This document shows, one piece after another, positions 5,120 to 15,193 of a DNA stretch of 64,000 nt. A program made the position numbers and the translations under genes. Within the stretch, counting starts at the first letter, position 1. Each line of letters starts with the position of its first letter. Below the pieces are notes generated by a model, which searched no databases, had not been told where the DNA came from, and was given only the letters and a program-made list of their open reading frames with translations. Source of the DNA: an uncultured Sphingomonadaceae bacterium. GTDB lineage: Bacteria; Pseudomonadota; Alphaproteobacteria; Sphingomonadales; Sphingomonadaceae. The stretch spans positions 62,001-126,000 of the forward strand of contig CALLJS010000011.1 of NCBI GenBank assembly GCA_938050045.1, read 5' to 3'.

Positions 5120-5173
5120 ACTAGCATTATAGTTATAATTGTGGTTTATGATTATCTTTTAAGAGGAGTAATT

Positions 5174-5848
5174 ATGGATCGCAGAAGCGTAGGAAAGAAA
5201 AGGCTTGATGCATTTGTCGATGGTGCTTTTGCATTTTCGGCCACTTTATTGGCGGTAGGCAATGCTCCAGCGATGAAGAGTTTTGACGATGTAATCATGC
5301 GCTTTGCTCATGTTCCTGCTTTTGGGTTGAGCCTATTGGTGATTATGAGCTTTTGGTGGGCCCATAGGCAATATGGCAATACCGTTGTTCAGGACGATTC
5401 GATTAGCAATGCTGTTTCGATTTTTATAATGTTTCTGGTGATGATCTTCGTTTTTCCTCTTGGTTTTCTGGCGGAATCTTTCCTGCATTGGTTGTCAGAT
5501 GGGATTTTGCCTGGCGTTGGATTAAATGCTGCTCAAATGGAAGATATTTACCTCTTATTTGGCGCAGGCTTTATATTGCTCAGCGCGGCGTATGCATTTT
5601 TATATTCCTATGCTTTATATGGCCGGATCAACGGACGAATAGCGGCTATTTTACTGCCATCTACCAAGGTGCGGTTTCGTAATTGGATTTTGTGCATATT
5701 AACAGGATTTATCTCTATTATAGCAGCCCAATTGGCCCCTATTGAGAGTTTGATATGGTTGCCAATGCTGCCTTATGCCATTCTGATAATCGGTCTATTT
5801 TTGATGGCAGCTCTTCGTTTTTTCAAAAATTATAACATTAGAGGTTAA
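5174..5848 (+). CDS. TMEM175/DUF1211-family membrane protein
   Basis: 224 residues with about six hydrophobic segments. The N-terminal KRLDAFVDGAFAFSATLLAVG stretch corresponds to the RxxxFSDGVFAI-type signature of the first pore helix in bacterial TMEM175 (DUF1211) potassium channels. The second-half repeat of the two-repeat family is less clear here, so ion selectivity is not established. The start at 5174 is chosen because AAGAGGAG stands just upstream; a GTG at 5141 would add eleven residues. The stop lies one base before the S1/P1 nuclease start, so the two genes are probably co-transcribed, perhaps with translational coupling. Confidence 0.75.
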   Translation: MDRRSVGKKRLDAFVDGAFAFSATLLAVGNAPAMKSFDDVIMRFAHVPAFGLSLLVIMSFWWAHRQYGNTVVQDDSISNAVSIFIMFLVMIFVFPLGFLAESFLHWLSDGILPGVGLNAAQMEDIYLLFGAGFILLSAAYAFLYSYALYGRINGRIAAILLPSTKVRFRNWILCILTGFISIIAAQLAPIESLIWLPMLPYAILIIGLFLMAALRFFKNYNIRG

Positions 5849-12802: not shown

Positions 12803-12979
12803 CTAATTCATTATCAAGGCTAATAATAAATAGATTAAAATCGGTGAGCCAACGCCAATAATCGTAGTAATTACAAAGATTAACCTTACCATTGATCCAT
12901 CAATATTAGCCCATTCAGATAGTCCGCCGCATACGCCAGCAAGTTTTTTATTGGTTTTGCTTAATGTAAATTTACTCAT
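12803..12979 (-). CDS. PspC domain small membrane protein
   Basis: 58 residues. The PspC signature reads KLAGVCGGLSEWANID, then VRLIFVITTIIG and a hydrophobic C-terminus (SPILIYLLLALIM). In enterobacteria PspC senses inner-membrane stress and binds PspA; here only the PspC domain is present, with no PspA or PspF gene in the window. GAGG precedes the ATG by seven bases. It lies 66 bases downstream of small peptide A on the same strand, so it is probably the last gene of the operon driven by the sigma-54-type promoter at 13363-13378. Confidence 0.85.
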   Translation of the reverse strand: MSKFTLSKTNKKLAGVCGGLSEWANIDGSMVRLIFVITTIIGVGSPILIYLLLALIMN

Positions 12980-13022
12980 ATTATTTCCTCTGATTAATTT
13001 GGTTGATGTTAATGATTAAGAG

Positions 13023-13049
13023 TGATTCAGGGTGATTCAGGGTGATTAT
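13023..13049. repeat. Short tandem repeat, about 2.6 copies of GTGATTCAGG
   Basis: A 10-bp unit GTGATTCAGG is repeated in tandem, with a degenerate third copy that overlaps the stop codon of peptide A. It lies between peptide A and pspC and may be replication slippage without function. Confidence 0.5.
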
Positions 13050-13165
13050 GCAAATATTGCTGCATGGGGCGAGATTGCTGGGCCAACGCTCATTCCAATA
13101 GTGATGGTAGCACAAAAAAGGGCGGCTACGATGCTGGCGACATGATTTACGGTTGTGTTTGTCAT
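13046..13165 (-). CDS. Small hydrophobic membrane peptide A (recF-flanking family)
   Basis: 39 residues: a short polar N-terminus (MTNTTVNH), then one hydrophobic helix with the core FCATITIGMSVGPA and a tail ending AIFA. It is homologous to three other peptides around recF; all share an [F/S]CA-[S/T]-I-x-I-[G/A]-M core with an invariant Cys. AAAGGAAA precedes the ATG by seven bases. It lies 33 bases after peptide B and 66 bases before pspC, in one minus-strand operon. I know no named family. Single-pass inner-membrane location is inferred from the composition. Confidence 0.7.
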   Translation of the reverse strand: MTNTTVNHVASIVAALFCATITIGMSVGPAISPHAAIFA

Positions 13166-13198
13166 AATATTTCCTTTATTTATGTGATTTGAATTTGG

Positions 13199-13309
13199 TT
13201 AAGCCAAAAATGCAGATGTAGCCCCAAGAGCAATGCCCATTGCGATAATGATGCTTGCACAAAAAAAGTTTGCGAAACTGTGGGCGAAATTTGTTGCTAT
13301 ATCTGTCAT
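13199..13309 (-). CDS. Small hydrophobic membrane peptide B (recF-flanking family)
   Basis: 36 residues, the most diverged of the four paralogs. The N-terminus is MTDIATNF, the core is FCASIIIAMGIA and the tail is AFLA. It is the first gene after the sigma-54-type promoter at 13363-13378, with an expected leader of about 43 bases. Its ribosome-binding site is weak (AAAGAAAG). The invariant Cys and the I-x-I-x-M pattern are kept, and the start MTDxAT matches peptide D. Function is unknown. Confidence 0.6.
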   Translation of the reverse strand: MTDIATNFAHSFANFFCASIIIAMGIALGATSAFLA

Positions 13310-13362
13310 TTATACGCTTTCTTTTTATCTAGGATAGAATTTGGTGGTGATGCTATGTACTA

Positions 13363-13378
13363 TGCATAAGCTGTGCCA
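13363..13378 (-). promoter_or_regulatory. Sigma-54 (-24/-12) promoter of the peptide B-A-pspC operon
   Basis: On the minus strand the sequence is TGGCACAGCTTATGCA, which fits the sigma-54 consensus TGGCAC-N5-TTGCA with one mismatch in the -12 element. The diagnostic GG and GC are exactly ten bases apart. Transcription would start near 13352, about 43 bases before the peptide B start. The same element, equally spaced, precedes peptide D. Confidence 0.7.
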
Positions 13379-13451
13379 GTTTTAGAAAATTATTTTTTAT
13401 CAATAATTTAGGTGAATTTTATTCTGAAAATCCTAATATTTTCTATTAAGA

Positions 13452-13490
13452 GTTGGTGTAAAATCCCATATGTTGGAAAAAATACCAATC
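13452..13490 (-). promoter_or_regulatory. Possible enhancer (activator) site upstream of sigma-54 promoter 1
   Basis: Two similar half-sites, GTTGGTGTAAAA (13452) and GTTGGAAAAAA (13472), lie 20 bases apart and about 75-110 bases upstream of the -24 element. The second includes the inverted repeat TTGG-N8-CCAA. A related pair lies upstream of the second promoter at 15041-15076. Position and duplication suggest binding by a sigma-54 activator; this is inference. Confidence 0.35.
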
Positions 13491-13579
13491 CGCGCCATAA
13501 ATATTTTTTAGCCTTGGTGCATAATCGCTCTGCTCATAATCTTGGTTGACCATTTCTTAAGATGGTTTAGCCAGAAAAT

Positions 13580-14653
13580 ATGAGCTTATCGCGCCTTACA
13601 TTGACCCATTATCGCAACCATGCGGCCCTTGATTTGGAATTGAAAAGCAATTTCATAATATTCTCTGGTGAAAATGGGACTGGAAAAACCAATATATTAG
13701 AAGCCGTGTCTATGCTGGCGCCTGGGCGCGGACTGCGCCGAGCAGCTTTACGCGATATTGCGATGCAAGAAGAAGGCAAGGGCTTTGCTATTTCAGCAGT
13801 GAGCCAAGAAACCCAGCTTGGAACAGGATGCGATGCCGCTCACCCCGATAGACGGATTTTACGCATCAATGGTGCGACAAAAACGATTAATCAATTGGCA
13901 GACTATTTATCAATCTCTTGGTTGACGCCTGCAATGGACAGATTATTTAATGATAGTGCATCAGCGCGGCGCAGGTTTTTAGACAGGCTGACCCTCGCTC
14001 TCTATCCCGATCATGCCCATCACGCCAGTCGTTATGAAAATGCAATGCGGCACAGAAATCGTATTTTTGCTGATGAGGGTGCTTATGATGAGAATTGGGT
14101 GGCTAGCCTAGAATCAATCATGGCCGAGCATGGATATTATCTCTCAAATAATCGATGGCAATTAGTTGCGGCCCTCAATGCTATGATTAAGGCCGAGCAA
14201 AATGATTCTTTTGCAAAGCCGCACCTTAAAATTAGCGGCGAAGAGTATCAGGATATCGAAGCCTTATCGATGGCTTTAAAAAATAACCGTCATTTAGACA
14301 GAGGAGCAAAGCGAAGCTTAATTGGGCCGCACAGAGAGGATGTGTTGGTTCAGCATCGCGCTAAAAATCAACCTGCTGCGCATTGTTCTACAGGAGAGCA
14401 AAAGGCTATGCTCTTATCGCTAATTTTAGCGCATGCTGATTTGGTCAGAGAGCGCAGGGCTGGTAGACCTTTGTTGATTTTATTGGATGAAGTTGCGGCG
14501 CATTTAGATCCTGCGCGGCGTCTAATATTGTTCGAGCGATTGTCGCAAGGCCATAGTCAAATATGGCTTACGGGGACTGAAAAAGCACTTTTCACTGGGA
14601 CTGAAGCTTATGCGCAGCATTATCATTTCGATGAAGGGCTGCATTTATATTAA
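13580..14653 (+). CDS. recF: DNA replication and repair protein RecF
   Basis: 357 residues, an SMC-like ATPase that binds gapped DNA and with RecO/RecR helps load RecA. The Walker A motif is GENGTGKTN (residues 30-38), the signature region is STGEQKAMLL, and Walker B with D-loop is LLILLDEVAAHLD. The length is usual. The stop codon TAA overlaps the convergent stop of peptide C through a shared TTAA. It is not next to dnaN, which lies 43 kb away, so the classic dnaA-dnaN-recF order is broken. It is flanked on both sides by the small-peptide operons, whose regulation is probably unrelated. Confidence 0.95.
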   Translation: MSLSRLTLTHYRNHAALDLELKSNFIIFSGENGTGKTNILEAVSMLAPGRGLRRAALRDIAMQEEGKGFAISAVSQETQLGTGCDAAHPDRRILRINGATKTINQLADYLSISWLTPAMDRLFNDSASARRRFLDRLTLALYPDHAHHASRYENAMRHRNRIFADEGAYDENWVASLESIMAEHGYYLSNNRWQLVAALNAMIKAEQNDSFAKPHLKISGEEYQDIEALSMALKNNRHLDRGAKRSLIGPHREDVLVQHRAKNQPAAHCSTGEQKAMLLSLILAHADLVRERRAGRPLLILLDEVAAHLDPARRLILFERLSQGHSQIWLTGTEKALFTGTEAYAQHYHFDEGLHLY

Positions 14654-14769
14654 GACATTATAGCTAAAAATGGGAATAGCGCGGGGGCAATGCTCATGCC
14701 GATAGTGATGCTGGCGCATGAAAGAGCGGCAATGATGCTGATGATTTGAATGGGGAGGGGCTCGTTCAT
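14650..14769 (-). CDS. Small hydrophobic membrane peptide C (recF-flanking family)
   Basis: 39 residues: MNEPLPIQ, then a hydrophobic helix with the core SCASITIGMSIAPA and the tail LAIMS. The 13-residue stretch CASITIGMSIAPA is identical to peptide D. The two genes also share a 32-bp exact DNA repeat (14687-14718 and 14857-14888), so the duplication is recent or under strong constraint. AAGGA precedes the ATG. It lies 50 bases downstream of peptide D in the second peptide operon, and its stop overlaps the recF stop. Function is unknown. Confidence 0.7.
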   Translation of the reverse strand: MNEPLPIQIISIIAALSCASITIGMSIAPALFPFLAIMS

Positions 14770-14819
14770 TTGAATTATCCTTATATGCGGTAAATTATAT
14801 GCGATACATTGTTCTGGGT

Positions 14820-14936
14820 TTATGCAAAAAATGCTGAATTTGGGGCGATGGCTGGAGCAATGCTCATGCCGATAGTGATGCTGGCGCAAAATAGGGCTGC
14901 TAAGATGCTGGTGCAGGTTGTTGCTGTGTCGGTCAT
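14820..14936 (-). CDS. Small hydrophobic membrane peptide D (recF-flanking family)
   Basis: 38 residues: MTDTATTCTS, then a helix with the core FCASITIGMSIAPA and the tail SAFFA. It is the best match to the family consensus and has a second Cys at position 8. AAAGGA precedes the ATG by eight bases. It is the first gene after the sigma-54-type promoter at 14972-14987, with an expected leader of about 25 bases. It is probably a single-pass inner-membrane peptide. I recognise no named family. Confidence 0.72.
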   Translation of the reverse strand: MTDTATTCTSILAALFCASITIGMSIAPAIAPNSAFFA

Positions 14937-14971: not shown

Positions 14972-14987
14972 TGCATGGGGTGTGCCA
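14972..14987 (-). promoter_or_regulatory. Sigma-54 (-24/-12) promoter of the peptide D-C operon
   Basis: The minus strand reads TGGCACACCCCATGCA, with GG and GC ten bases apart as in sigma-54 promoters. It differs from promoter 1 only in the spacer. Directly upstream is the perfect palindrome AACTTTATAAAGTT (14987-15000); promoter 1 has a similar AT-rich quasi-palindrome there. The predicted start of transcription is near 14961. Confidence 0.7.
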
Positions 14988-15040: not shown

Positions 15041-15076
15041 TTGGGTGTAAATTAAAACTAGTTGGTGAAAAACACT
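15041..15076 (-). promoter_or_regulatory. Possible enhancer (activator) site upstream of sigma-54 promoter 2
   Basis: Half-sites TTGGGTGTAAA (15041) and GTTGGTGAAAAA (15061) are spaced about 20 bases apart, 55-90 bases upstream of the -24 element. They match the pair upstream of promoter 1 in order and spacing. GTG-N5-CAC symmetry is present in the second. Activator binding is inference. Confidence 0.35.
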
Positions 15077-15193
15077 ATAAAATGGGAAAAATGCTAACTC
15101 AAAAATAAATATTTTTAATATTAATTCATAATAGACCTAATAATTTGGTGTTTTGCATCAAATCATGCGATTGTAACGCATAGATTGATATAT

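Follow-up and report, generated by a model that had tools for sequence, protein, structure and literature searches.

Candidate PspF/sigma-54-controlled membrane micropeptides beside recF in Sphingorhabdus

The phage shock protein (Psp) response is a textbook envelope-stress system. The window analysed here, a stretch of 64,000 nucleotides (contig CALLJS010000011.1, positions 62,001 to 126,000), comes from a 2.42 Mb genome of the genus Sphingorhabdus (G000, the own genome) and carries four very short open reading frames (ORFs) on either side of recF. These ORFs are probably genuine micropeptide genes of the Psp regulon, which would be induced through PspF and sigma-54 and whose products would act in the inner membrane together with PspC and PspA; the reading is drawn from comparative sequence analysis. 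A first-pass annotation of the window had described the ORFs as a family of one-helix membrane peptides and proposed no function for them; to this the present analysis adds sigma-54 promoters, an upstream element of the PspF type and PspC as a partner.

Layout and conservation of the peptide genes

The four paralogous ORFs of 36-39 codons, all on the minus strand and flanking recF, are present as the first-pass annotation had described them. Two of the peptides make up operon A (14936 to 14650); the other two, followed by a PspC-domain protein, make up operon B (13309 to 12803). The lengths are given in amino acids (aa).

14820-14936, minus strand: peptide gene A1, first of operon A; ORF of 38 aa with an AAAGGA ribosome-binding site (RBS) and a profile match
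14650-14769, minus strand: peptide gene A2, second of operon A; ORF of 39 aa, paralogue alignment and profile match
13199-13309, minus strand: peptide gene B1, first of operon B; ORF of 36 aa, paralogue alignment and profile match
13046-13165, minus strand: peptide gene B2, second of operon B; ORF of 39 aa, paralogue alignment and profile match
12803-12979, minus strand: mini-PspC, third gene of operon B; 58 aa, single PspC domain (PF04024, 61.6 bits)
13580-14653, plus strand: recF, between operons A and B and outside the system; ORF, found in 33 of the 40 fetched relative loci

The span first assigned to the peptide family was right for the four peptide genes but not for 12803-12979, which is the PspC-domain gene. 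A2 overlaps the final four bases of recF on the opposite strand. An RBS of the AAGGA type precedes three of the four genes, in agreement with the earlier description, and a weaker one stands before the gene that starts at 13309. In a full-length alignment of the four peptides nine columns are invariant and A1 is 55, 53 and 63% identical to the other three copies; B1 is the copy that scores lowest. Hydropathy and helix prediction bear out the idea of one-helix membrane peptides, and AlphaFold2, run on the four-sequence alignment, models A1 with moderate confidence (mean pLDDT 75.5) as a single helix of residues 2-37.

A profile built from the four window peptides matched 36 of 37 Sphingorhabdus genomes, the own genome included, at E<=0.1, and the matches were strong (E<=3e-7) in 34 of them; the match in G025 is cut by a contig end, the match in G022 is doubtful, and G002, a genome 72% complete, gave no match to this profile. 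Weak matches of the same profile in 7/24 genomes of other genera (E 0.006-0.06) were treated as chance. The ratio of nonsynonymous to synonymous substitutions (dN/dS), calculated by the Nei-Gojobori method over 45 distinct 39-aa genes, had a median of 0.21 with 0/259 pairs above 1, where only pairs with usable divergence were counted and the pairs are not independent of one another. Absence from related genomes or a ratio near 1 had been named beforehand as grounds for giving up the family; the peptides are conserved in relatives and the ratio lies well below 1. Since the profile matches extend across the genus and dN/dS is low, the four ORFs behave as real coding genes. Very short ORFs commonly arise by chance, but the likelihood that these are chance ORFs or decayed duplicates is minimal in view of the paralogue alignment and the placement of the sigma-54 sites described below, and the genus-wide matches together with dN/dS rule it out. 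The claim of a paralogous family that arose by duplication and retained its function is likewise borne out by alignment, conservation and dN/dS.

The peptides had been said to belong to no named family, and none of 36 family members exceeded a cut-off in Pfam, where the best match was that of the first member to DUF5325 (E 0.0038, 17.5 bits, cut-off 25), or in NCBIfam (best E 0.013). A search by DNA similarity found no plasmid copies of operon A. Two other parts of the earlier description held within narrower limits. The cysteine regarded as invariant is kept in 35/36 aligned Sphingorhabdus peptides but is absent from most of the peptides shown from other genera, and was rejected as a mark of the wider family. 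Peptides on both sides of recF occur in the window, in G035 and in G011, but 31 of the 33 relative loci that hold recF have them on one side only.

The mini-PspC of operon B passes the PF04024 domain cut-off; against the TIGR02978 equivalog it scores 42.7 bits, below the cut-off of 104, and covers model positions 7-58 of 121. A relative of this gene was present in 33 of the 40 fetched loci, a set to which some genomes contribute two loci and in which L093 and L094 rest on doubtful matches. In operon A of the window no psp gene follows the peptides.

Promoters, upstream element and the link to PspF

Each of the two operons is preceded by a candidate sigma-54 site and, further upstream, by a putative activating element:

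14972-14987, minus strand: sigma-54 -24/-12 site of operon A, TGGCACACCCCATGCA, pattern match
13363-13378, minus strand: sigma-54 -24/-12 site of operon B, TGGCACAGCTTATGCA, pattern match
15062-15078, minus strand: upstream activating element of operon A, ATAGTGTTTTTCACCAA; its distance to the -24 site is 91 bp, and its position is that of TTGGYATTWTTTCCCAA in relatives
15081-15097, minus strand: second element-like copy further 5' of operon A, TTAGCATTTTTCCCATT, recognised by eye
13453-13469, minus strand: upstream activating element of operon B, ATGGGATTTTACACCAA; its distance to the -24 site is 91 bp
13472-13488, minus strand: second element-like copy further 5' of operon B, TTGGTATTTTTTCCAAC, recognised by eye

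The sigma-54 pattern has 20 matches in the own genome, compared with one for the reversed control, and rpoN was found there. Across the fetched loci and the window, a site lies within 130 nt of the first gene in 41/43 peptide arrays, which hold 1-3 tandem genes, and before none of the 18 inner array genes; random windows of 130 nt contain one in 280 of 40,000 cases. A regular expression located the element TTGGYATTWTTTCCCAA in 27/41 peptide promoters, 91-92 bp upstream of the -24 site. Scored by consensus bases, at least 9/14 are present at 89-94 bp in 39/41 peptide promoters and in 23/29 Sphingorhabdus pspA promoters with a sigma-54 site (typically TTGGCATATTTCACCAT at 91), a score that has no shuffle control behind it. 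The elements of the two window operons reach 9-10/14, and in both of them the second copy sits 19 bp above the main element.

The link to PspF draws in part on the combination of element, spacing and sigma-54 site. This composite pattern gave 55 matches in 34/45 Sphingorhabdus genomes and none for the reversed-pattern control; 26 of the matches stand at peptide operons, 28 at pspA and one elsewhere. When a stricter form was run over genomes of 84,980 species, it returned 70 stretches, of which 38 precede pspA (two in spirochaete records and one in a Rhodospirillales record among them), 28 precede peptides of 35-42 aa and four are others. Three of these four are an identical motif in Mollicutes or Anaeroplasma records, and the fourth lies at the end of a Spirochaeta contig whose opposite strand reads into ATGGGAGTATTCAGTCG, an apparent pspA start. 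Over 397 Sphingomonadaceae genomes the composite pattern matched 15, nine of them outside Sphingorhabdus (new loci L291-L299), and because it matches so few it is to be taken as a specific signature and not as a census. The own genome encodes a PspF that scores 482 bits against TIGR02974 (cut-off 443.55), and its pspF is divergent from a pspA-led cluster.

According to the accessible part of PMC3709507, PspF binds two upstream activating sequences at pspA and one at pspG. In the Escherichia coli pspA promoter, 81 bp upstream of the -24 site, lies the palindrome TTAGTGTAATTCGCTAA, which differs from the strict consensus at 5/14 positions, yet is the best match in that intergenic stretch; it has a single mismatch to a degenerate form, which was written after the E. 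coli site was known. Taken together, the regulation of the peptide operons by PspF and sigma-54 is well supported by these comparisons, less so in the window's own clade, and PspF itself would be the protein that binds the element.

A natural deletion bears on this dependence. G003 is the sole genome of 41 in the genus without a PspA match, and it has no PspF above the cut-off, only a C-terminal piece of it. Relative to G033, about 4.0 kb are missing inside a contig; the gap takes in most of pspF, all of pspA and the psp genes behind it (L318, G003:C33, 2939-2942). The peptide operon of G003 retains an intact ORF and upstream element, while TGG of the -24 site is replaced by TGT; the genome has TGTTATAGGCTATGCA where relatives have sites such as TGGCATAGGCCGTGCA or TGGCATAAGCTATGCA, and the -24 GG is gone. 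This loss, a single event, is indirect evidence and fits the direction predicted by PspF dependence.

The 5' leaders of peptide operons also contain an inverted repeat resembling CCGGAATGGTCCGG (e.g., L068, about 5152-5201), which was seen in 26/40 distinct leaders. Because the two leaders of the window lack it and the one example that was folded was no more stable than its shuffles, the repeat is left out of the argument.

Related peptides beyond the genus and in front of pspA

A wider peptide profile matched 20/396 genomes of the order. Among the 11 matching genomes from other genera of the family, those of genera g64 (five), g33 (two) and g69 (one) are credible. G353 has a plausible peptide, but its locus showed no sigma-54 site; G324 and G199 showed no peptide gene preceded by a usable RBS, and the profile also matches G099 from another family. 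The five g64 genomes carry peptide arrays with 3-8 matches per genome, in which Ser or Ala usually replaces Cys; all the arrays inspected have a sigma-54 site and, by eye, an element-like stretch, degenerate in some. At two g64 loci (L199, L214) the array is followed by a mini-PspC and then by an apparent cation-diffusion facilitator gene in the same orientation. Peptide arrays with sigma-54 sites occupy a second site just 5' of an apparent aldehyde dehydrogenase gene in L058 (G028:C28) and L071 (G012:C196).

In G359 (genus g33) the genes behind one sigma-54 site are, in this order, that of a 44-aa peptide, pspA and one with a PspC domain, and the arrangement in G343, also of g33, is similar. 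Records of Sphingopyxis, Sphingomonas, Erythrobacter and other sphingomonads hold peptides behind the composite promoter, several of them only putatively homologous to the window type, and the psp operon in Sphingomonas records starts with a peptide of 47-48 aa. A joint profile of the Sphingomonas and the two g33 peptides aligned with the profile of the window type (recF type) in hhalign at 94.1%, E 1.2e-7; it was the recF-type profile that had first picked out the g33 members.

In 57/67 pspA loci that have a sigma-54 site (29 from Sphingorhabdus and 38 from the species-wide scan, some genomes being in both; L137-L166, L220-L289), a helix-like ORF of 39-72 aa stands between promoter and pspA; among shuffled leaders the figure is 8 of 3,840. 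The ten loci without such a leader belong to the window clade (G000, G011, G022, G035), to the sphingomonads L233, L235 and L273, and to the non-sphingomonads L247, L266 and L276; the remaining 25/25 Sphingorhabdus pspA loci with a site retain it. The 62-aa Sphingorhabdus leader is under constraint (median dN/dS 0.29, 0/199 pairs above 1). Its candidacy as a homologue of the recF-type peptide was rejected, homology being undetected. Behind pspA in the own cluster (L107, G000:C10:261240-263162) lies a run of small membrane-like proteins of 81-126 aa with similar C-terminal ends.

The four leaderless Sphingorhabdus genomes form one clade in the PspA tree (support 0.998), and this clade has a second recF-side peptide operon in 3/3 genomes where the locus was seen, that of G022 not being seen. 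The window clade appears to have exchanged its pspA-leader peptide for a duplication of the operon beside recF, a pattern that comes from one clade.

Proposed role, alternatives and known systems

In E. coli, PspA holds PspF in the absence of stress (accessible part of PMC3709507). We propose that in the unstressed cell PspF would likewise be held by PspA, and that membrane stress would free it to bind the element about 91 bp 5' of the sigma-54 site and activate sigma-54 RNA polymerase, so that pspA and operons A and B would be transcribed. The one-helix peptides would then enter and accumulate in the inner membrane, with operon B and its relatives co-producing a minimal PspC. In the recF-type peptides 23 Lys or Arg residues precede the helix core and none follow it (36 sequences, 13 of them without any), and in the leader peptides 100 precede and 58 follow it. 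Because these residues precede the helix core, N-in/C-out is the likelier orientation. Within the bilayer the peptides may be effectors of the PspC/PspA response or modulate it, by analogy with PspG in E. coli.

Several observations weigh against this reading. The composite pattern is absent from 11/45 Sphingorhabdus genomes, among them G000, G011 and G035 of the window clade, and the pspA promoters of that clade reach an element score of just 8/14, with TTGAT at -12 in the own genome. A looser pattern for the element by itself occurs at 11 positions in the own genome; two are at the peptide operons, and at the other nine the fetched locus has no sigma-54 site. Two of the 43 peptide arrays lack a sigma-54 site (L082, which is G003, and the doubtful match L093), and E. 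coli pspG shows merely a four-mismatch likeness to the element. The pspA-leader peptide of Sphingorhabdus has no detectable homology to the recF type, the loss in G003 is a single event in which the peptide ORF is still intact, and the dependence among the dN/dS pairs counts on the same side. Because the own clade lacks the composite pattern and its own element is weak, the case for PspF in the window itself is made by position, by similarity and by homology with its relatives. Stretches similar to one another, of the RNGGGAYAATTTACCAACT type, lie at G000:C2:154, C11:6210, C13:203751 and C10:172173, where the fetched loci show no sigma-54 site; they might be bound by another regulator or be a repeat.

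The weak element in the own clade leaves some room for another enhancer-binding protein in place of PspF. The genome encodes seven strong sigma-54 activator domains, and some of its 20 candidate sigma-54 sites precede apparent exopolysaccharide, flagellar-sigma, ammonium-transport and TPR genes. Such an activator would, however, have to account for 54/55 composite matches in the 45 genomes and 66/70 species-wide stretches lying at pspA or peptide operons, and for the operon linkage of peptide and pspA in G359, which makes it very improbable. Equally, the peptides are the first ORFs behind the sigma-54 site and are commonly followed by pspC or pspA, as would be expected of short upstream frames whose translation tunes the next gene; amino-acid-level purifying selection, the tandem copies, the conserved C-terminal residues, and operon A of the window with no psp gene to tune render it improbable that they matter mainly as such leaders. 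Size, hydrophobicity and tandem copies could also suggest membrane-depolarising peptides, either small hydrophobic toxins of type I or antimicrobials resembling bacteriocins. We consider this highly improbable given the fixed chromosomal site beside recF, the purifying selection and the promoter common to pspA; no Pfam or NCBIfam family exceeded its cut-off, and antisense RNA was not searched for.

A further alternative concerns the C-terminal end of the peptides. In the recF type the last residue is Ala in 33/36 and the preceding one is L, V, I, F or M in 36/36, and YLA is the C-terminus of 32/40 unique pspA-leader peptides (almost all of Sphingorhabdus origin), whose linkers vary. Such conserved ends would suit exported signalling or ligand peptides in which the helix would act as signal anchor or signal peptide, leaving the periplasmic tail as the functional part. 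The charge distribution noted above, clean in the recF type and less so in the leaders, agrees with export, and some leaders appear by eye to carry a signal-peptidase site. In recF-type peptides, however, few residues extend beyond the helix and the tail could be buried in the membrane, so that export as such appears unlikely. Within the framework of PspF-induced membrane peptides, a broader, speculative and rather doubtful hypothesis is that sphingomonad Psp units generally start with a one-helix micropeptide, recF-type beside mini-PspC and leader-type beside pspA, whose periplasmic hydrophobic-Ala tail might be a ligand or degron for a PDZ/tail-specific protease or for PspC. If true, the Psp response would have a sensing or feedback arm that has so far gone unseen.

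Should the peptides be PspF-induced members of the Psp regulon, the regulon outside enterobacteria would exceed what long genes suggest and would include a micropeptide branch under the same control element. The data yield candidate membrane effectors, a PspF-site signature with 0 control matches in 45 genomes and a genome with a natural deletion, and the operon structure indicates PspC as a likely partner of the single-helix peptides. In the main text of a broad survey of the Psp system, as far as accessible (PMC11237479), the terms 'small protein', 'PspG' and 'sphingo' have 0 occurrences, and no apparent description of these peptides was found among the matches listed in the open-licence PMC literature.

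The known targets of the E. coli response are pspABCDE and pspG, according to the accessible part of PMC2763126. As described there, PspG resembles the peptides in being a separate PspF/sigma-54 unit that encodes a small integral inner-membrane protein and Psp effector. It differs in that its 243-bp gene encodes 80 aa with two predicted helices, whereas the peptides have 36-39 aa and one predicted helix and occur in tandem and with a mini-PspC; short of the roughly 80 aa and two membrane helices of the PspG family, they are set apart from it by description. The operon B gene matches the PspC domain, but with 58 aa it stays below the TIGR02978 cut-off for PspC. The recF locus and the pspF-pspABC locus have in common the type of regulator, the sigma-54 promoter, the upstream element and a PspC domain, and in G359 a peptide gene opens the operon of the latter; the recF locus is a second, distant unit. 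The peptides would form a new class of members within a regulon that is already known.

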